Positions 22,800-45,442 of a stretch of 45,647 bases of DNA are shown piece after piece. Each line of letters starts with the position of its first letter. Position 1 is the stretch's first letter. The DNA lies in NCBI GenBank assembly GCA_903954185.1, contig CAJBMM010000030.1:1-45647 (forward strand), given 5' to 3'. Origin of the DNA: an uncultured Candidatus Berkelbacteria bacterium. Its GTDB lineage: Bacteria > Patescibacteriota > UBA1384 > CAJBMM01. The notes under the pieces are model-generated. The model did not search any database. It was not told the origin of the DNA and worked only from the letters and a program-made list of their open reading frames with translations. The position numbers were made by a program, and so were the translations under genes.

Positions 22800-22903
22800 G
22801 CAGTGAGCAGAGATCATAGAACAGAGAGCATGAAGCTTGAAGCATGCATAGCACTCCTGCGATGTGAGCCTGACGCAGTCTGTAGGCGCATCGGAGGTGT
22901 GCG
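22798..22903 (-). repeat. Dispersed palindromic repeat, copy 1
   Basis: The core at 22851-22903 is an imperfect palindrome (GCACTCCTGCGATG against CATCGGAGGTGTGC, 12 of 14 pairs). Its reverse complement matches 39679-39731 base for base over most of 53 positions, and the flank (TTCTATG, CTGCTCACTG) also matches the region after that copy, giving a unit of about 106 bp. Confidence 0.7.
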
Positions 22904-24586: not shown

Positions 24587-24630
24587 GATCCTTCGGCAAG
24601 GATCGTCATTCGATCCAGGCGCAGGATGAC
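24587..24630 (+). repeat. Palindromic repeat between pheS and pheT
   Basis: GATCCTTCGGCAAGGATC (24587-24604) is a hairpin with a CGGC loop, followed by a second part ending CAGGATGAC. Read on the minus strand it begins GTCATCCTGCGCC, like the other GTCATYC-type repeats in this window. A frame running through it from 24580 would add 29 odd residues to PheT. Confidence 0.6.
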
Positions 24631-26953: not shown

Positions 26954-28339
26954 ATGGAAAGAGTTTTAAACAGTGAAACAGTAAAGCATATTGGCAGTAA
27001 AGTTTCGGTTTGCGGCTGGGTACAAACCCGCAGAGATCACGGCAAAATAGTATTTTTAGATATGCGAGACACAAGCGGCTTGTTGCAGGTGGTAATATTT
27101 GACTCTACTTTAGTTAAACAAATAGAAGATCAAACCATTAACCGCGAATATGTGCTTTCTGTTACCGGAACTGTAGCAGCCAGACCAGAAAAATTAGTAA
27201 ACGATAAAATTCCTTCTGGAACGGTAGAATTACAATGCGAAAAAATTGAGGTACTTTCTGCAGCCGAATTCCCTCCATTCGAAATTGAAGAGGAATTGAA
27301 TGTAGATGAAGAAATGCGTATGAAATATCGTTACCTAGATTTACGCCGCCCCACAATGCTTAACAGATTTAAACTTAGATCAAAAGTTCTGCAATTTATT
27401 CGTAATTGGTTAATTGAAAAAGAGTTCGTAGAAGTAGATACCCCCATGCTTACCAAAGATACACCAGAAGGTGCGCGTGAATATATTGTTCCATCACGAT
27501 TGCAACCGGGGAAAGGCTATGCCTTGCCACAATCGCCACAACAATTTAAACAACTGTTAATGGTATCTGGCTTCGAAAAATATTTTCAAATTGCCAAGTG
27601 TTTACGCGATGAAGACCCAAGAGGCGATAGGCAACCAGAGTTTACACAACTCGATATGGAGATGAGCTTTGTAGAGCAAGAAGACGTGATGAAGTTAAAT
27701 GAAGCTTTGCTTATCGATTTAATCGAAAAGTTAGCACCAAATAAGCATATTCAAACCAAACCGTTCCCACGCATGACTTATGCCGAGGCTATGGAAAAAT
27801 ATAAAACCGATAGACCAGATTTACGGGTTAATAAAGACGACCCGAACGAATTGGCGTTTTGCTGGGTAGTAGATTTTCCATTTTTCGAAAAATCCGATAA
27901 TGGTAATTGGACTTTTACTCACAATCCATTTTCCGCCCCTGTGCCAGAAAATATGGCCGATCTTATGGAAAAAAAGAATATCCCCGATATAAAAACAACG
28001 CAATACGATATTGTTTTAAACGGTTTTGAAATTGGTGGCGGAAGTATTAGAAATCATCAGGCAAGTGCATTGCATAAGGTTTTTGAAATAATGGGGTTAA
28101 CCGAAGAATTGATCGAAAAGAAATTCGGTCATATGCTTAAGGCATTCGCTTATGGTACACCTCCTCATGGCGGCATTGCTTGGGGATTCGACCGCTTAAT
28201 GATGCTCTTAACCGATACGCCAAATATACGCGAAGTCATTGCTTTTCCAAAAACAGGCGATGGTCGCGACCTTATGATGGGCGCCCCAAGCATAATAACT
28301 GACGAAAAACTGAAAGAACTACATTTAAAAAGAAGTTAA
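26954..28339 (+). CDS. aspS: Aspartyl-tRNA synthetase, short form without GAD insert
   Basis: 461 residues, where bacterial AspRS is usually about 580-600. The anticodon-binding OB fold (KVSVCGWVQTRRDHGKIVFL), motif 2 (LRDEDPRGDRQPEFTQLDME) and motif 3 (HGGIAWGFDRLMMLLTDTPN) are all present, as is the TPEGAREYIVPSRL stretch of bacterial AspRS. After TDRPDLRVNKD the protein passes straight to ELAFCWVVDFPFFE, so the bacterial GAD insertion domain (about 100-130 residues) is absent. Aspartylation should still work. AGAGGAA lies upstream and the gene is coupled to pheT. Its stop opens a 57-bp tandem repeat. Confidence 0.94.
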   Translation: MERVLNSETVKHIGSKVSVCGWVQTRRDHGKIVFLDMRDTSGLLQVVIFDSTLVKQIEDQTINREYVLSVTGTVAARPEKLVNDKIPSGTVELQCEKIEVLSAAEFPPFEIEEELNVDEEMRMKYRYLDLRRPTMLNRFKLRSKVLQFIRNWLIEKEFVEVDTPMLTKDTPEGAREYIVPSRLQPGKGYALPQSPQQFKQLLMVSGFEKYFQIAKCLRDEDPRGDRQPEFTQLDMEMSFVEQEDVMKLNEALLIDLIEKLAPNKHIQTKPFPRMTYAEAMEKYKTDRPDLRVNKDDPNELAFCWVVDFPFFEKSDNGNWTFTHNPFSAPVPENMADLMEKKNIPDIKTTQYDIVLNGFEIGGGSIRNHQASALHKVFEIMGLTEELIEKKFGHMLKAFAYGTPPHGGIAWGFDRLMMLLTDTPNIREVIAFPKTGDGRDLMMGAPSIITDEKLKELHLKRS

Positions 28340-28484
28340 CGGAAATTCGAAATACGAAATACGAAATTAGATGATAATGTTGATTAAAGAAGTTAACGGA
28401 AATTCGAAATACGAAATACGAAATTAGATGATAATGTTGATTAAAGAAGTTAACGGAAATTCGAAATACGAAATTCGAAATTCG
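28331..28484 (+). repeat. 57-bp tandem repeat at the end of aspS
   Basis: The unit starts AGAAGTTAACGG, which contains the last aspS codon and its stop. It repeats at 28388 and 28445 (period exactly 57), with two near-perfect copies and a shorter third that ends in GAAATTCGAAATTCGAAA. Each unit holds runs of GAAATACGAAAT. Confidence 0.85.
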
Positions 28485-28508
28485 AAACAAAAAAGATGTT
28501 TAATTATT

Positions 28509-28859
28509 ATGATGGATTATAATTTACAAAAACGGACAATCGAATTTAGCAAAAATTCAATAATTTTTGCAAAAAAGTTGCCAGTTAATCACATATCACG
28601 CCCGATTATTACACAATACATTAAGTGCTCATCAAGCATTGGCGCTAACTATTGTGAAGCTAATAATGCAGAGTCAAAAGCTGATTTTAGACATAAAATA
28701 TCAATATCGAGAAAAGAATCGCAAGAAACCTGCTATTGGTTAGAGATTATGAAAACAACATTTGAAGAATTCACGCCTGAAATAATAGTATTACTAAAAG
28801 AAGCAACCGAACTTAACTTAATCCTTTCAAAAATATTACTTAATAGCAAAGACAAATAA
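28509..28859 (+). CDS. Four-helix bundle protein
   Basis: 116 residues from the ATG at 28509 (28512 also possible); an in-frame ATG at 28428 reads through the tandem repeat. The helical pattern with KKLPVNHISRPIITQYIKCS, SSIGANYCEANNAESKADFR and SRKESQETCYWLEIMKTT matches the four-helix-bundle family related to proteins encoded within 23S rRNA intervening sequences. The molecular role of this family is not settled. No 23S rRNA is nearby. No ribosome-binding site is visible. Confidence 0.8.
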   Translation: MMDYNLQKRTIEFSKNSIIFAKKLPVNHISRPIITQYIKCSSSIGANYCEANNAESKADFRHKISISRKESQETCYWLEIMKTTFEEFTPEIIVLLKEATELNLILSKILLNSKDK

Positions 28860-28954
28860 TGTAACAGAAATTTGAAGCACGAAATTCGAAAATCGTAACA
28901 TATTATTCGATCCTCTGTTTCTGATTTCAAATTTCGAATTTTTGTTAAATTAAT
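28860..28954. repeat. Degenerate GAAATTCGAAA-type repeat before queH
   Basis: ACAGAAATTTGAAGCACGAAA (bases 28863-28883) and the following AT-rich palindromic text resemble, in opposite orientation, the region 29757-29840 (TTTCGTGCTTCTGATTTCTG), so queH is flanked by imperfect inverted copies of the same repeat. Related GAAAT-CGAAA text occurs at 28340-28485 and 38520-38560. Confidence 0.5.
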
Positions 28955-29524
28955 ATGATTAAATCCAAAATCTTATTACACGCTTGTTGCGCACCTTGCT
29001 TAACGGCAGCGCACGACAGGTTAAAATCTGAATACGATATAGATATTGTTTGGTACAACCCAAATATTTATCCAGTTGACGAAGAAAAGAAACGCTTGGC
29101 AGAGTTAAGACGATATGCGGGCGAGGTCAAGGCTAATCTTATAGAATTACCGTGCAATGATGACGATATTGTCGAATGGAAACAGTCTGTGGTGAGTTTT
29201 GCTCATTTGCCAGAAGGCCAAAGACGTTGCAGCGAATGTATTTATTTTCGACTAAACAAAATGACTAAGTTTGCCAAAAAAGAGAAGTATAAACGAGTTG
29301 CCACCACACTAACTGTTTCTCCAAAGAAATCTGCCATATTAGTAAATAATGCTTTAAAGAAATCTAGCATTAATGCAGGGTTAGAATATATTGAGGCAGA
29401 TTTTAAAAAACAAAACGGTTATTTAAAATCAATCGAACTATCTAAAGCTCACAATCTTTACCGCCAAAACTATTGCGGCTGCGAATATAGCTTAAGTGAA
29501 AGTAAACAGAAGCACGAAATCTAA
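28955..29524 (+). CDS. queH: Epoxyqueuosine reductase QueH
   Basis: 189 residues. QueH performs the last step to queuosine in tRNA, reducing epoxyqueuosine. Its Cys pattern is complete: HACCAPC (9-15), EGQRRCSECIYFRL in the middle and QNYCGCEYS near the end; these hold an FeS cluster and a second metal site in characterised members. Other queuosine genes are not in the window, so the substrate would come from elsewhere. The ATG follows AT-rich repeat DNA with no clear ribosome-binding site. Confidence 0.88.
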   Translation: MIKSKILLHACCAPCLTAAHDRLKSEYDIDIVWYNPNIYPVDEEKKRLAELRRYAGEVKANLIELPCNDDDIVEWKQSVVSFAHLPEGQRRCSECIYFRLNKMTKFAKKEKYKRVATTLTVSPKKSAILVNNALKKSSINAGLEYIEADFKKQNGYLKSIELSKAHNLYRQNYCGCEYSLSESKQKHEI

Positions 29525-29607
29525 AAATCAGGAAGAATGCTTCGAATTTCTAATTTCAATTTTTCGTTTAATTTCTAATTAAATTATTCGAAAACTTTAT
29601 ATCAATT

Positions 29608-29677
29608 GTCATTCCTGCGCAGGCAGGAATCTACATAATAAATTATCCGATTGGATCCCTGCCTGCGCAGGGATGAC
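29608..29677. repeat. Inverted pair of dRS3-like palindromes
   Basis: ATTCCTGCGCAGGCAGGAAT (29611-29630) and, 24 bases later and inverted, ATCCCTGCCTGCGCAGGGAT (29655-29674); each is preceded or followed by GTC/GAC. Both are self-complementary at the ends. They closely resemble the Neisseria dRS3 repeat (ATTCCC, 8 bases, GGGAAT). Confidence 0.75.
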
Positions 29678-29848
29678 AAATAATTTTGAATACCTATTTT
29701 CACACCATTTTCTGTTACTTTTGCCACTTTTCTCACTTTTTCCTACACTTTTCTTTCAAATTTCGTGCTTCTGATTTCTGTTAAATTAATAAATTGATTT
29801 ATTTTTCGAATTTCTAATTTCGAATTTTTGTTAAATTCTCTTACATAC

Positions 29849-29876
29849 TTGTCATCGCCACTACTCGGAATATAAT
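29849..29876 (+). promoter_or_regulatory. Promoter of the small membrane protein at 29944
   Basis: TTGTCA (29849-29854), 16-base spacer, TATAAT (29871-29876). A leader of about 60 bases contains GGGGAGGA at 29933-29940 just before the ATG. Confidence 0.55.
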
Positions 29877-29943
29877 AAAATTAAATACATTAATAGCGTT
29901 TCATGTTTCAAGTTCCATGATCCATGACCGCAGGGGAGGAATT

Positions 29944-30180
29944 ATGTTCAATAAAAGCCACAAAGAAAAAACATTCTTGGGTGTTGCCATGTTTATTATA
30001 TTGCTAGGAGTAATTGTTTTGGTAATAGGATTATGCCAGTGGGTTTATAACTGGTGGTACCTAGATTACGCATTTGCCATGCCATCTGCAAAAGTAATCG
30101 GCGGCCTTGTCGTAATTGCACTTGGTTACATTCAATTAGAACTCGAACTCATCCGCACTCACAAACGCATTAAAGAGTAA
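29944..30180 (+). CDS. Small two-helix membrane protein, unknown
   Basis: 78 residues from the ATG at 29944, set by GGGGAGGA four bases upstream; an in-frame ATG at 29917 is upstream of that site. Two hydrophobic helices (about 11-39, FLGVAMFIILLGVIVLVIGL, and 51-67, KVIGGLVVIALGY) are joined by a Trp/Tyr-rich loop; the tail ends IRTHKRIKE, on the cytoplasmic side by the positive-inside rule. It has its own promoter. It could be a toxin-like or lipid-associated small protein, but nothing supports a specific role. Confidence 0.65.
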   Translation: MFNKSHKEKTFLGVAMFIILLGVIVLVIGLCQWVYNWWYLDYAFAMPSAKVIGGLVVIALGYIQLELELIRTHKRIKE

Positions 30181-30482
30181 TTCTATAATTTAAAATACTA
30201 ATGCCGCATATCTAATACACTTTGTAGAATCTCCGTTTTAAATGTTGGTATTACCTAGCGGTATACTTTGTAGTTTAGTTTGCTTAATATTGACATTTAT
30301 GCGCATTTATGCTAATATATACGCTTGTGGCTATTATTTAGCTTTGTAGCACTTTTACACATTAATTTCGTATATTATCTGCGCTTGCGTGTAGCACCGT
30401 GAGTACAACATAGTTTGTATTTACAGCGCTATACCCAAGCGAGTCGCGACTGCGCGCCTCGACTTCATCAAGGAGGTGGCAC
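30181..30482. other. Gene-free region with long leader for the histidine phosphatase
   Basis: No reading frame was accepted. The DNA is AT-rich to about 30380, then becomes GC-rich towards 30482. The promoter is at 30290-30318. Confidence 0.5.
30290..30318 (+). promoter_or_regulatory. Promoter upstream of the GC-rich phosphatase gene
   Basis: TTGACA (30290-30295), exactly 17 bases, TAATAT (30313-30318). It lies about 165 bases before the ATG at 30483, leaving a long leader that ends in the strong ribosome-binding site AAGGAGGTGG (30470-30479). Confidence 0.6.
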
Positions 30483-31148
30483 ATGCCACACCCATTCGAT
30501 CCCAACCTTACGCTGGTAGTATGGCTTCGCCATGCTAGGCATGAGAATCAGATCGTCCCAGAGAGCGCGTACGCCGAGTTGGCATACGAGGGAATGATGC
30601 TCGAACGACTCGGGATCAAGATCGATGTCGTCTTCGGGTCCCCGCTTCCTCGCGCAGTACGCAGCGCGTTGATGTTGACCGCCGGTAACAACAGCGTCGC
30701 CAAGATCTATACCCACAACGCTCTCGGCGACTTCACCACCAACCCTGGGCTGGGCCCCCTGGTGCCAATGATCAAAGCGGCGGCGGCGGCAGAGGGCGCG
30801 GAGGCGGAGGCGTTTGCGTTGCAGATGAACAACGTTAACGTCCGTGAACGAATTCTCGAGATCGGACGCCTCGCTGCAAAGCAAGTCGAGATTGCGAAAG
30901 CAACTCTTGCTGGACCGGGCGGCGTATTGCTCGTGCCGGGTCATAGCCCGGCGCTCGAGCTGGCCATCATGTCCATGCGAGGGAGGAAGTTTTTGGGTGA
31001 GGATACCGACTCCAATATCCCAATCACGCCGCCCTTTATGATGGAAAGAGGGTCAGTTGCCGTAACAATATTTAGTTACGGCAGCTACGTCGACACCCAG
31101 TACCTAGGCATCGTCGACGACAAGACCACCTGGCCGCCTGCCCCATAG
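30483..31148 (+). CDS. GC-rich histidine phosphatase superfamily protein
   Basis: 221 residues. The branch 1 histidine-phosphatase signature is LRHARHEN: Arg16-His17 would hold the phosphohistidine, with Ala in place of the usual Gly. SPLPRAVRSA (Arg57, Arg60) and VPGHSP (His154) complete the active site. The family removes phosphate from small molecules or proteins; the substrate is unknown. The gene is much richer in G and C than its neighbours, with codons such as CTC, GCC and GGC. It has an AAGGAGGTGG ribosome-binding site unlike those around it and two GC hairpins after it. Together these suggest recent transfer. An Ala-rich stretch is at 99-110. Confidence 0.85.
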   Translation: MPHPFDPNLTLVVWLRHARHENQIVPESAYAELAYEGMMLERLGIKIDVVFGSPLPRAVRSALMLTAGNNSVAKIYTHNALGDFTTNPGLGPLVPMIKAAAAAEGAEAEAFALQMNNVNVRERILEIGRLAAKQVEIAKATLAGPGGVLLVPGHSPALELAIMSMRGRKFLGEDTDSNIPITPPFMMERGSVAVTIFSYGSYVDTQYLGIVDDKTTWPPAP

Positions 31149-38159: not shown

Positions 38160-38801
38160 CTAACCAAGAGTGGTTATTGGCCTAGATTGAGTGATGTATA
38201 ATTTGTCTTTTTCCATTGCCCACTCAATATCACACGGAAATTTGTAGTGATTTTCTATGCCAATGCATATGTTGGCTAATTCAATAATTTTTTCGTCAGT
38301 AAGTTTTTGCAACTCTTGTTTTGCGTGTTCAATTGGATATTCTTCTGTAACCCCATTTCGTTTTGTAATCATAATTTCTTGTTGAGAAATGTATTTATCC
38401 ATTATGTGGATTCCTACCTGCGCAGGAATGACAGGCACGGAGTGTTCTGCTTTTGCACGTTCATCGGGCGAACACACAGATTCGCCCCTACGATCATTTA
38501 AATTATTTTCTTCTTCCAATTTTTCGGATTTCCGATTTCGGATTTCGGATTTTGTCGTCTTCAAGACGACGTAAGTATCTGGTGTAATAATTCCACCCAC
38601 AATTGCTTCTCCTAACCCATAGCCAGCTTCTATCACCAACTGATCATAATCCTGAGTTACCGGATGAACCGTAAAGCATATCCCAGAAATTTCTGACTGT
38701 ACCATTTTTTGCACCACCACCGCCACAGACACTTTAGTGGTATGCAATTTTTTCTCAAATCGATAAAATAGGCTCTTGGCGTAAATAAAGAAGACCAGCA
38801 C
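38160..38801 (-). pseudogene. ATP-grasp (PPDK_N-like) gene, C-terminal part after the frameshift
   Basis: Homology begins at about 38770 (FYRFEKKLHTTKVSVAVVVQ) and continues through SGICFTVHPVTQDYDQLVIE, AGYGLGEAIVGGIITPDTYV to the end, DIEWAMEKDKLYITQSRPIT, the normal end of an ATP-grasp nucleotide domain. The first ~10 residues read from the ATG at 38801 are out of frame with the family. The domain stops just where the swivelling domain would begin in PEP synthase, so this was a stand-alone ATP-grasp subunit. About 55 residues in the middle (38390-38560) come from inserted repeats (KSEIRNRKSEKLEEE, VIPAQVGIHI). Confidence 0.75.
38390..38560 (-). repeat. Palindromic repeats inserted in frame in the ATP-grasp gene
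   Basis: On the minus strand a GAAATCCGAAATCGGAAAT-type block (about 38525-38556) is followed by other non-family text and then a dRS3-like unit, ATTCCTGCGCAGGTAGGAAT, preceded by GTC (38410-38432). The unit is translated as VIPAQVGIH. The reading frame stays open across the block. Confidence 0.7.
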
Positions 38802-39241
38802 TCTTTTATCGTATCTAGCAATTTATCCTCGGTTGTATTTAAATAAGACTCTAACTCACCAGCCCAAGAAGCGCTAGATGAATCCTCGGCTGTAGCCGAT
38901 GAACGAACGGCAACAAACTCAGCATTTAGCGTTTTATAATGTTGCAGCACCACATCTTTTATATCGGCAGGAAATTGTGCATTTTTTATCAGTGCGCGAA
39001 TTTCTTCAGACATTTTTTCGACAGAATTAATATCTTGATGATTTAGTTTGTGTAATGCCGATTCTATTTCTACATCGATGCCAGTTTCTTTAATAAATTG
39101 CTCAAAAGAAGCAGATAGTACCACAAACCCCGGTGGCACCGGAATACCAGCTTTTGTCATTTCGCCTAAAGATGCACCCTTGCCGCCGGCTAGGGCCACA
39201 TCGTTCTTATCTAACTCTTTAAAATTTCGCACCAATTCCAT
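38657..39241 (-). pseudogene. ATP-grasp (PPDK_N-like) gene, N-terminal part before the frameshift
   Basis: Start at 39241 (an ATG at 39247 also exists; AAAAAGGATGA lies six bases before the chosen one). The family match is good: GGKGASLGEMTKAGIPVPPG, FVAVRSSATAEDSSSASWAG, ELESYLNTTEDKLLDTIKEC, WSSLFTPRA. It then falls out of frame, because one base is missing near 38770/38771, and ends in unrelated residues after about residue 170. This domain binds ATP and phosphorylates the swivelling His in pyruvate phosphate dikinase, PEP synthase and rifampin phosphotransferase. Restoring one base would give a ~360-residue protein. It heads the minus-strand operon. Confidence 0.78.
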
Positions 39242-39270
39242 ATTCATCCTTTTTAAAATGTTATTTTTTC

Positions 39271-39352
39271 GTCACCCCAGTTTGACCGGAGTCTACTAAA
39301 GGCTTTCTAGATTCTGGACTGGAGAACGCTAAGCGTTCCAAGCCAGAATGAC
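39271..39352. repeat. 82-bp repeat with GTCA and TGAC ends
   Basis: It begins GTCACCCCAG and ends CCAGAATGAC, so the ends are imperfect inverted repeats. Inside, GAACGCTAAGCGTTC (39323-39337) is a perfect hairpin. It belongs to the same general GTCATYC-type family as 43628-43653. Confidence 0.6.
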
Positions 39353-39543: not shown

Positions 39544-39640
39544 AGGGTTGTTCCCTACGCAGCTCCGTGCGTAGTAGGGTGCAACCCTTAACACAAATTG
39601 TTGGAGGGTTGCACCCTTGTCAGACAAGGGAACAACCCTT
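39544..39640 (+). repeat. Compound palindromic element, copy A
   Basis: Four 13-bp modules in order: AGGGTTGTTCCCT, AGGGTGCAACCCT, AGGGTTGCACCCT, AGGGAACAACCCT. Modules 1 and 4 and modules 2 and 3 are mutual complements, so the unit can fold as nested stems. Small hairpins (ACGCA/TGCGT and CTTGT/ACAAG) fill the gaps. Confidence 0.75.
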
Positions 39641-39678: not shown

Positions 39679-39731
39679 CGCACACCTCCGATGTGCCTAC
39701 ACGCTAGCGCAGGTTCACATCGCAGGAGTGC
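39679..39731 (+). repeat. Dispersed palindromic repeat, copy 2
   Basis: Inverted homologue of 22851-22903: it opens CGCACACCTCCGATG and closes CACATCGCAGGAGTGC. Homology continues to about 39785 (TTCTATG repeats and CTGTTCACTG). Confidence 0.7.
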
Positions 39732-39774
39732 TTTGTTTGACCTTTGTTCTATGTTCTATGTTCTATGGCCGCTG

Positions 39775-39809: not shown

Positions 39810-40550
39810 ATGAGAATTAACCATTTTATCGCAAGCGCAGGAATTTGTTCACGCCGAAAAGCTGACGAGATGGTCAAGGCAGGCATGATAAAAGTCAATC
39901 ATATAATTATCCGAGAGGTTGGCTTAGAAATTTCTTTAACCGACATTGTAGAGGTGAATAAGAGTGGCACGTGGAGTATCATATCTACACCCACTACAAC
40001 AGTAACATATGCTGTCAATAAACCAGCTGGATATACATCAACAGCAGAAGATAGGTTTGCTAAGAATTTAGTTATCGATTTAGCACCCAAAAACCCTCGG
40101 GTTTTTACTATAGGGCGTCTTGATAAAGATAGTGAGGGATTAATTTTATTGACAAATGACGGTGAACTTACCAATCGCTTAACCCATCCTTCAAATCATG
40201 TATCTAAAACTTATATAGCCACCATTGGCATTCCACCTAAATACGATATAAATCAAATTGCTACAAATTTATCCAAGCTTGAATCTGGGGTATTTATTGA
40301 TGATAGAAAAACTGCCCCATCAAAAATTAATATATTGCACCCCGTAAACAAACAATCTCATACCTTTGAAGTAAAAATTGTATTATCCGAAGGTCGCAAC
40401 CGACAAATCCGTAAGATGTTTCAAAAAATCGGCTTGAATGTGTTAAAATTAAACCGTATAGCAATTGGCAAACTAGAATTAAACAGTCTTAAAATTGCAT
40501 CGGGAAAATACAAAGTATTAAACAGCAAAGAATTATCATTACTTAAATAG
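39810..40550 (+). CDS. rluB: RsuA/RluB-family 16S/23S rRNA pseudouridine synthase
   Basis: 246 residues from the ATG at 39810; the earlier ATG at 39744 is upstream of the -10 box and reads repeat DNA. An S4 domain (1-45, MRINHFIASAGICSRRKADE) is followed by the catalytic domain with YAVNKPAGYTST and GRLDKDSEGL, where Asp105 is the nucleophile. The end has EGRNRQIRKMFQKIGLNVLK, typical of the family. It turns a specific uridine in rRNA (or tRNA for RluF) into pseudouridine; the exact target cannot be read from sequence. The stop starts a 75-bp tandem repeat. Confidence 0.88.
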   Translation: MRINHFIASAGICSRRKADEMVKAGMIKVNHIIIREVGLEISLTDIVEVNKSGTWSIISTPTTTVTYAVNKPAGYTSTAEDRFAKNLVIDLAPKNPRVFTIGRLDKDSEGLILLTNDGELTNRLTHPSNHVSKTYIATIGIPPKYDINQIATNLSKLESGVFIDDRKTAPSKINILHPVNKQSHTFEVKIVLSEGRNRQIRKMFQKIGLNVLKLNRIAIGKLELNSLKIASGKYKVLNSKELSLLK

Positions 40551-40708
40551 TTAAAAGTGACAACGCCACGTTGTCATCCTCGACGCGAGTATACGAGCAA
40601 TTATTCGAGGATCCAAGAAAGAAAGTTAAAAGTGACGACGCCACGTTGTCATCCTCGACGCGAGTATACGAGCAGTTATTCGAGGATCCAAGAAAGAAAG
40701 TTAAAAGT
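40549..40708 (+). repeat. 75-bp tandem repeat after rluB
   Basis: The unit AGTTAAAAGTGA... starts at the rluB stop (40549), repeats at 40624 and begins a third time at 40699 (period exactly 75). Each full unit contains GTCATCCTCGA and TCGAGGATCCA as inverted ends of a palindromic block (about 40573-40614 and 40648-40689). Confidence 0.85.
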
Positions 40709-43627: not shown

Positions 43628-43653
43628 GTCATTCTGGCTTTGACCAGAATCTA
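43628..43653. repeat. GTCATTC-type palindrome between yceD and rpmF
   Basis: ATTCTGG (43631-43637) pairs with CCAGAAT (43644-43650), preceded by GTC and followed by CTA. Shares the form of 29608-29677 and 39271-39352. Confidence 0.6.
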
Positions 43654-44342: not shown

Positions 44343-44410
44343 AGGGTTGTAACCCTTAAGCATGTAGTTGTTTGAGGGTTGCACCCTCGTAATACGAGGG
44401 AACAACCCTT
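44343..44410 (+). repeat. Compound palindromic element, copy B
   Basis: AGGGTTGTAACCCT, then AGGGTTGCACCCT and AGGGAACAACCCT. It lacks the first module of copy A and has a hybrid in its place. The last two modules are identical to those of copy A. Confidence 0.75.
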
Positions 44411-45264: not shown

Positions 45265-45442
45265 CTGGTAGGCTGTAGGTTGTAGGAAAGGGTTGTTCCC
45301 TCATTCGATGAGGGAACAACCCTCCAACGAAACGTGTTTAGGGTTGCACCCTGTTCCGCTCAAAGCTGCACAGGGAACAACCCTTACTCGCAAATTGAAT
45401 TTAACTTCCAAGCCGCCTCTACAAACTACAACCTACCAGCTA
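45262..45442 (+). repeat. Compound palindromic element, copy C, with flanking inverted repeats
   Basis: The core at 45289-45385 holds AGGGTTGTTCCCT, AGGGAACAACCCT, AGGGTTGCACCCT and AGGGAACAACCCT. Outside it TAGCTGGTAGG...TTGTAG (45262-45285) is matched by CTACAACCTACCAGCTA (45426-45442), an inverted repeat with a 7-base gap on the left, giving a MITE-like outline. Confidence 0.7.

Follow-up and report, generated by a model that had tools for sequence, protein, structure and literature searches.

In Neisseria, the repeat dRS3 serves as a target for phage attachment or IS110/Piv-type insertion. A GIY-YIG nuclease of N. meningitidis, studied under the name Ssn, reportedly influences transformation and cuts single-stranded DNA at a sequence that occurs hundreds of times. 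A survey of REP sequences assigns dRS3 to the CGTC-1 class (Di Nocera et al. 2013, PMC3733652), whose members are described there as palindromes with an unpaired CGTC, TGTC or CCTC tag at one end, an 8-bp stem starting with AT, a 4-nt loop and a short unpaired tail, mostly CCA. They are multi-copy, lie mostly between genes and form mainly head-to-head dimers (PMC3733652). The same survey lists Proteobacteria, Chlorobi, Bacteroidetes, Spirochaetes and Thermotogae as hosts of the CGTC class, describes the class as lacking a dedicated transposase, reports no case of CGTC sequences flanking a tyrosine transposase gene, and leaves open what mobilises the superfamily, dRS3 of pathogenic Neisseria included (PMC3733652). 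GTAG REPs are recognised and cut by TnpA-REP enzymes (PMC8266576). Here, we describe a CGTC-tagged repeat pair in a member of the Patescibacteria, a group outside the phyla listed in that survey, and the nuclease gene that such repeats often bracket in related genomes.

A head-to-head palindrome pair downstream of queH

The window, that is, the whole stretch of DNA analysed, is a 45,647-nt contig (C30; 37% G+C) of an uncultured Candidatus Berkelbacteria genome that comprises 998,031 bases in 43 contigs and is 96.6% complete. At 29608-29677 it holds two GTC-tagged 20-bp palindromes (29611-29630 and 29655-29674) lying head to head, so the inverted pair reported by the first-pass annotation is real, with 24 nt between the two 23-mers (Table 1). 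The TGTC tag of the left arm occupies 29607-29610, the right arm is TGTC-tagged on the other strand, and the stem of the right arm carries a compensated T:A to C:G change. The dimer is intergenic, 83 bases beyond the queH stop codon. Folded as single-stranded DNA (29605..29680, + strand), the whole dimer is predicted to form one long hairpin of -27.9 kcal/mol, as against -8.07 (sd 2.39) kcal/mol for 200 shuffles (z -8.3). A reading as an RNA family was set aside, the span 28300-30500 being blank in Rfam. AT-rich tracts of TTCGAAATTCG-like units surround the dimer (28329-28499 and 29540-29842), and a perfect 57-nt tandem pair lies within them.

Table 1. Features of the repeat pair and its surroundings (window coordinates)
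Feature	Coordinates	Strand	Remarks
Left arm, 23-mer GTCATTCCTGCGCAGGCAGGAAT	29608..29630	+	sequence read directly
Right arm, 23-mer GTCATCCCTGCGCAGGCAGGGAT	29655..29677	-	sequence read directly
Spacer of the dimer, 24 nt	29631..29654	.	contains left-arm tail TACATAA and right-arm tail CCA
Left-arm build			TGTC-tagged palindrome, 8-bp stem ATTCCTGC, 4-nt loop GCAG; then C and tail TACATAA
Right-arm build			TGTC-tagged palindrome, stem ATCCCTGC, loop GCAG, tail CCA
queH (QueH, epoxyqueuosine reductase) gene	28955..29524	+	genomic context
Third family copy	38410..38432	-	within an ORF that matches PPDK_N (PEP synthase-like)
Tagged hairpin of another stem class, GTCATTCTGGCTTTGACCAGAATC	43628..43651	+	same kind of tail, TATATAA

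Since tag, stem and loop match the CGTC-1 description in the survey (PMC3733652), the feature is, judged by its sequence, a CGTC-1 REP dimer. It shares with that class the TGTC/CGTC tag, the AT-starting 8-bp stem, the 4-nt loop, the head-to-head arrangement and the intergenic position. Unlike the consensus tail CCA, the tails of about half of the genome's own units differ: TAYATAA follows 23 of 48 units, and 15 of the 48 carry CA after the C. Among 5606 occurrences of ATC in the same loci, 36 read ATCTAYATAA, the 23 unit tails included. Judged by their tails, the arms of the repeat are not alike.

How close is the pair to dRS3 itself? In one record of Neisseria gonorrhoeae, a dRS3 core and the bases flanking it are GTCATTCCCGCGCAGGCGGGAATC, and the left window copy is one base pair away from this 24-mer (C:G to T:A). 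Neither window copy has the exact dRS3 form ATTCCC-N8-GGGAAT (they read ATTCCT...AGGAAT and ATCCCT...AGGGAT); that form is present elsewhere in the genome, on C41. The dRS3 likeness pointed out by the first-pass annotation thus stands, to within one base pair in the left copy. Its designation as a NIME-like arrangement does not, because the repeat is not peculiar to Neisseria: of the 146 genomes searched, 40, the present one included, contain exact CGTC-1 palindromes, which are patchy among relatives. Compared with the Neisseria dRS3/NIME arrangement, the host is another, its genome of ~1.0 Mb being smaller than Neisseria genomes are, and there is one spaced dimer here, as against a dense array in the gonococcal locus (L284).

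The repeat family across the genome

The window by itself shows no significant excess of the motif: ATTCC-N10-GGAAT, allowing at most one mismatch, occurs 4 times versus 1.91 expected, a count equalled or passed in 14 of 100 shuffles. Over the whole genome, the 23-mer has 49 matches with at most three mismatches (25 on the + and 24 on the - strand, one fused place on C27 being counted on both), and its reversed control has none; the copy number, which the first-pass annotation had named as the point on which its claim hung, is far above chance. A looser tagged form, GTCATYC-N9-12-GRATC, is found 58 times, again with a control of 0. CGTC-1 copies lie near contig ends at C2:288 and C13:290, and the assembly may break at such copies.

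Other copies in the genome are tagged TGTC or CGTC, and 17 distinct units have in common the unpaired tag GTC and a C after the stem. In these 17 units, which were chosen for an 8-bp stem starting with AT and a loop of 4, 98.5% of cells are paired. Variation of the stem is compensated at three pairs, and 10 cells are changed on both sides versus 2.8 in shuffles, a value as high being reached in 0 of 500. Two of the five covariation measures were unremarkable, namely the number of pairs changed on both sides (3, reached by 52 of 500 shuffles) and the pair types (reached by 491 of 500). ORFs of at least 100 aa contain only 4 of 51 units, versus 571 of 820 random points; this set of 51 counts two fused palindromes on both strands, and its loci overlap in part with those behind the 48 tails. 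Spaced pairs within 150 nt were head to head in seven of eight cases (17-27 nt between) and same-direction in one, two further places are fused palindromes, and many of the 51 units are partnerless by a strict pairing test.

The related units that the first-pass annotation had listed in the window are a mixed group. The one placed at 38407 is a true copy (38410-38432), sitting in a stretch of ~40 extra residues relative to PDB 8a8e, and the one at 43628 has a different stem and a tail of the same kind. Those at 40573 and 40648 turn out to be another hairpin, GTCATCCTCGA...TCGAGGATCC, one tagged copy of which lies in each unit of a 75-bp tandem duplication (40549-40698, 97% identical). The entry at 39271 is weak, and that at 24587, the tag of which is actually at 24605, lies inside an ORF and is probably a chance match. 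Several other observations were made in the window: the PEP synthase-like gene (PPDK_N, 38160-39247) is divided between two ORFs that overlap in different frames; another family of palindromic repeats, AGGGTTG...AGGGAACAACCCT, is present at 39605-39639, 44375-44409 and 45289-45323; and a 57-nt inverted repeat, 84% complementary, has its halves 16.8 kb apart (22847-22903 and 39679-39735).

A GIY-YIG nuclease gene bracketed by the repeats

Head-to-head copies 327-337 bp apart were noticed in three genomes of different families, and each such pair brackets one GIY-YIG ORF. A profile built from these three bracketed ORFs (the seeds) was searched in 146 genomes and found strong homologues (at least 80 bits) in 49 of them, two in the present genome; the gene is patchy between relatives. 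Among 90 homologues, 35, with the three seeds among them, have outward-facing GTCATYC tags on both sides within 60 bp, and 54 have them on any side, whereas inward-facing tags, counted as a control over the same distance, flank 1 of 90 on both sides and 14 on any side. Gene ends were taken throughout as the ends of the profile match, homologues under 70 bits (L162 and L163 among them) were left out, and the 90 include some broken fragments. With the distance widened to 100 bp, 41 of 90 are bracketed, as against 3 of 701 places taken at random from these loci, and 27 of the 90 have no outward tag on either side.

Two other gene sets served for comparison. RAYT genes, from 20 hand-picked loci with L169 (broken frame) omitted and ten RAYT loci from another search unused, carry tags within 60 bp on both sides in 0 of 19 cases and on any side in 1 of 19, and the both-side count stays at 0 of 19 at 100 and 150 bp. 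Weaker GIY-YIG matches, 21 of them within 20 hand-picked stretches, give 0 of 21 on both sides and 2 of 21 on any side at 60 bp, and both-side counts of 1 of 21 at 100 bp and 2 of 21 at 150 bp. Named genomes were chosen by protein only: in the best 80 of 581 confirmed loci, scanned over 72 bp before the match and 60 bp after the stop codon, outward tags occur on both sides of 24 and on any side of 40, with 3 and 17, respectively, for the inward control. By record title or genus, the 24 bracketed loci among these best 80 include Alpha-, Beta-, Gamma- and Deltaproteobacteria, Omnitrophus, Chloroflexi, Parcubacteria and Moraniibacteriota. In the Moraniibacteriota homologue (L262), the bracketing sequence is GTCATTCCCGCGCAGGCGGGAATC.

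Y, Y..G, R, H, E and N are among the columns invariant in 36 nuclease homologues; these columns include the residues that are catalytic in GIY-YIG enzymes. The best Foldseek matches of the confidently predicted fold (pLDDT 95.3) are UPF0213 (1zg2, E 0.0034) and Slx1 (6seh, E 0.010), with the I-TevI domain at E 1.0 and no match at E 0.001 or better. As predicted, the protein would share the GIY-YIG fold with I-TevI, UPF0213 and Slx1; unlike GIY-YIG homing endonucleases, it has no separate DNA-binding domain in its chain of 93-97 aa, and its gene lies outside any intron. One phage record holds a 35% identical match to the nuclease. A literature search of partial coverage gave, among the matches listed, no title or abstract opening that joins GIY-YIG nucleases to CGTC REPs, and one on GIY-YIG together with dRS3 found nothing within a similarly incomplete coverage of the literature.

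Two nucleases in the genome itself

Both nucleases of the present genome are intact ORFs, one of 97 aa on C15 and one of 87 aa from its first ATG on C9, and both are GIY-YIG proteins by Pfam PF01541 (E 1.1e-15 and 2.3e-12). Each of them is adjoined by hairpins of its own: loop-4 hairpins in one case, a hairpin of the GTCATYCYGA kind in the other. Next to the C15 nuclease, the stem is ATTCCCGT with the loop GAAA, not the abundant ATTCCTGC form; a close tagged copy lies on its right only, and a complete dimer ~100 bp to its left. The C9 nuclease (L104 947-1294) lies between the two members of another inverted pair, TCATCCTGAGTAAAACGAAGGATCTCTA and a partner 93% complementary to it. Around the C15 gene (L089 1373-1943), half-sites ending in AATGAC are seen on both sides with a 22-bp period. 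Because the abundant stem differs from the one beside the C15 nuclease, the pair at 29608-29677 may be served by this nuclease with relaxed specificity, by one that was lost, or by one in an assembly gap.

Co-occurrence and matching of hairpins and nucleases

Across the 146 genomes, the nuclease is present in 30 of 40 with CGTC-1 palindromes versus 19 of 106 without (OR 13.7, p 2e-10), and in 14 of the 15 with at least seven copies. The association persists with RAYT held fixed (OR 10.6 and 13.3) and when each family contributes a single genome (median OR 10.8, median p 2.5e-5), and within-family discordant pairs follow CGTC-1 by 8:1. Ten of the 40 CGTC-1 genomes have no strong nuclease match, G060 with its 9 copies included; partial matches are present in G019 and G027.

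Do particular nucleases go with particular hairpins? In the 39 of 172 loci that have a palindrome on both sides, the two flanking stems are identical in 19, compared with a shuffled mean of 7.3 and a maximum of 17. On a quick tree of 172 proteins, with the compared labels on 83 rows, 3 changes suffice for loop-4 CGTC-1 versus GTCATYCYGA hairpins (after shuffling, a mean of 18.6 and a minimum of 13), and the loop-4 and loop-5 classes separate poorly (12 changes; shuffled mean 16.4, minimum 11). Hairpin class thus partly follows nuclease phylogeny. The labelled rows nearest to the genome's own two nucleases mostly have the same kind of hairpin, and one genome holding two nuclease-hairpin kinds with mostly matching tree neighbours argues against mere host relatedness.

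Sites with and without the gene

In Azospirillum lipoferum 4B, a block of repeat dimer, nuclease gene and repeat dimer lies between sufB and sufC, and the nuclease/dimer block is absent from between these genes in A. oryzae, A. ramasamyi, strain B510 and A. argentinense. The flanks between the genes have diverged so far that the exact borders of the block cannot be placed; for the block itself, we infer a gain in A. lipoferum and not four losses. Sinorhizobium meliloti Ak57 has two copies of the nuclease gene, one of them truncated, among loop-5 hairpins; at the same site, Sinorhizobium K101 is without the gene and has a single fused palindrome left. For the Rhizobium CIAT894 site, no clean empty site was found. 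In N. gonorrhoeae, the nuclease homologue (51% identity) lies among 16 dRS3 cores arrayed over 3.3 kb, and the dRS3 copies nearest to the gene are not outward-facing.

Discussion

What moves these repeats? We consider it probable that the CGTC-1 REP dimer is a non-autonomous repeat, whose partner is most likely not a RAYT but a single-domain GIY-YIG endonuclease of ~95 aa that, in its autonomous form, is bracketed by the same class of hairpin and would work by extrusion, cutting and repair. By its predicted fold, the dimer would extrude as a hairpin when the DNA is single-stranded; a nuclease of the matching clade would bind the GTC tag and stem-loop and cut there; and the cut ends would be repaired or recombined using REP copies as homologous sequence, allowing the hairpins and the bracketed gene to spread in a homing-like manner, mostly between genes. 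The two nucleases of the present genome would act in trans. GIY-YIG enzymes are not known to join DNA ends, and movement would therefore need host repair.

This arrangement resembles REPINs and REPtrons with their RAYT (TnpA-REP) in its inverted REP pair, its single long hairpin and the bracketing of an enzyme gene in the autonomous form. It differs from them in the tag, which is GTC-AT and not GTAG, in the enzyme, which is GIY-YIG and not HUH/Y1, and in a genome without Y1_Tnp. The likeness to the Ssn nuclease and NTS sites of N. meningitidis consists in a single-domain GIY-YIG protein and in a gonococcal homologue embedded in dRS3 repeats. The substrate specificity of Ssn may differ from that of the partner nuclease proposed here, and a link of Ssn to the CGTC REPs of the present genome would be conjectural; from sequence we infer that the partner nuclease cuts and mobilises the repeats. 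The CGTC-1 survey describes no association with transposase genes (PMC3733652), whereas in the relatives studied here a gene is bracketed by the repeats.

The most serious competing account, against which we lean slightly, takes the nuclease-hairpin pair as real and gives it a job other than spreading: the hairpins would be cut sites on incoming or replicating single-stranded DNA, controlling transformation or DNA processing. What is reportedly known of Ssn in N. meningitidis speaks for such a job, as does the gonococcal homologue within its dRS3 array. However, a bracketed gene that is found in one Azospirillum and absent from four, and that is patchy between relatives in general, fits a mobile unit. 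A role in DNA processing and a mobile unit may also both be true together.

We regard it as unlikely that the repeats are or were spread by Y1/RAYT transposases in the way of GTAG REPs, with the transposase lost or having acted earlier and the nuclease gene riding along. The precedent is that TnpA-REP enzymes recognise and cut GTAG REPs (PMC8266576), and RAYT genes do co-occur with CGTC-1, being present in 28 of 40 genomes with the palindromes versus 43 of 106 without (OR 3.4, p 0.002; one genome per family, median OR 4.2, p 0.012). Yet this association loses its significance once the nuclease is controlled for (p 0.53 and 0.49), no RAYT gene of the 19 from relatives was tagged on both sides at any of the three distances, and the survey reports no CGTC-flanked tyrosine transposase gene (PMC3733652). 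The search for RAYT genes that the first-pass annotation had recommended came out against them as well: no Y1_Tnp (RAYT/Y1 transposase) was found in the present genome, which is 96.6% complete and has 49 repeat matches, and RAYT was rejected as the partner on this and on the bracketing counts. RAYTs may still have some part in the spread of CGTC-1, because within-family discordant pairs follow CGTC-1 for RAYT too (6:0).

Structural repeats kept for RNA, as terminators or mRNA stabilisers with no mobility today, would be expected to lie mostly between genes and to fold strongly, as these do. The GTC tag is conserved though unpaired, however, and the TAYATAA tail recurs on 23 of 48 units, while the repeats are patchy in relatives and without an Rfam match around the dimer (28300-30500); we think this reading improbable. 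Very improbable is that the repeats are targets of other elements, that is, phage attachment sites or insertion sites of the IS110/Piv type: dRS3 likeness and nothing else favours it, a Transposase_20 search of the genome, on which IS110/Piv was rejected as partner, gave no match, and neither the compensated stem nor the head-to-head dimers need it as an explanation.

The reading in which a GIY-YIG nuclease mobilises the dimer may be extended beyond this genome, at a confidence only just short of even. CGTC-tagged REPs across bacteria, dRS3 included, could be satellites of minimal mobile elements, each made up of a lone single-domain GIY-YIG gene with its own recognition hairpins on either side; hairpin class would co-evolve with nuclease clade, and the elements would spread by cutting and repair without a transposase. 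Should the Ssn studies have linked the sites of that nuclease to dRS3 already, the Neisseria side of this picture would be known, and what is added here would be the superfamily of CGTC REPs, the mobile unit with its bracketing repeats and the spread over phyla. The bracketing names an enzyme that can be tested and offers natural nuclease-hairpin pairs from several phyla. If our reading is true, the work on a single-strand nuclease in Neisseria would be tied to a class of repeats found far beyond that genus, and the spread of REPs by a nuclease that is not a transposase would constitute a second route beside that of the RAYTs.
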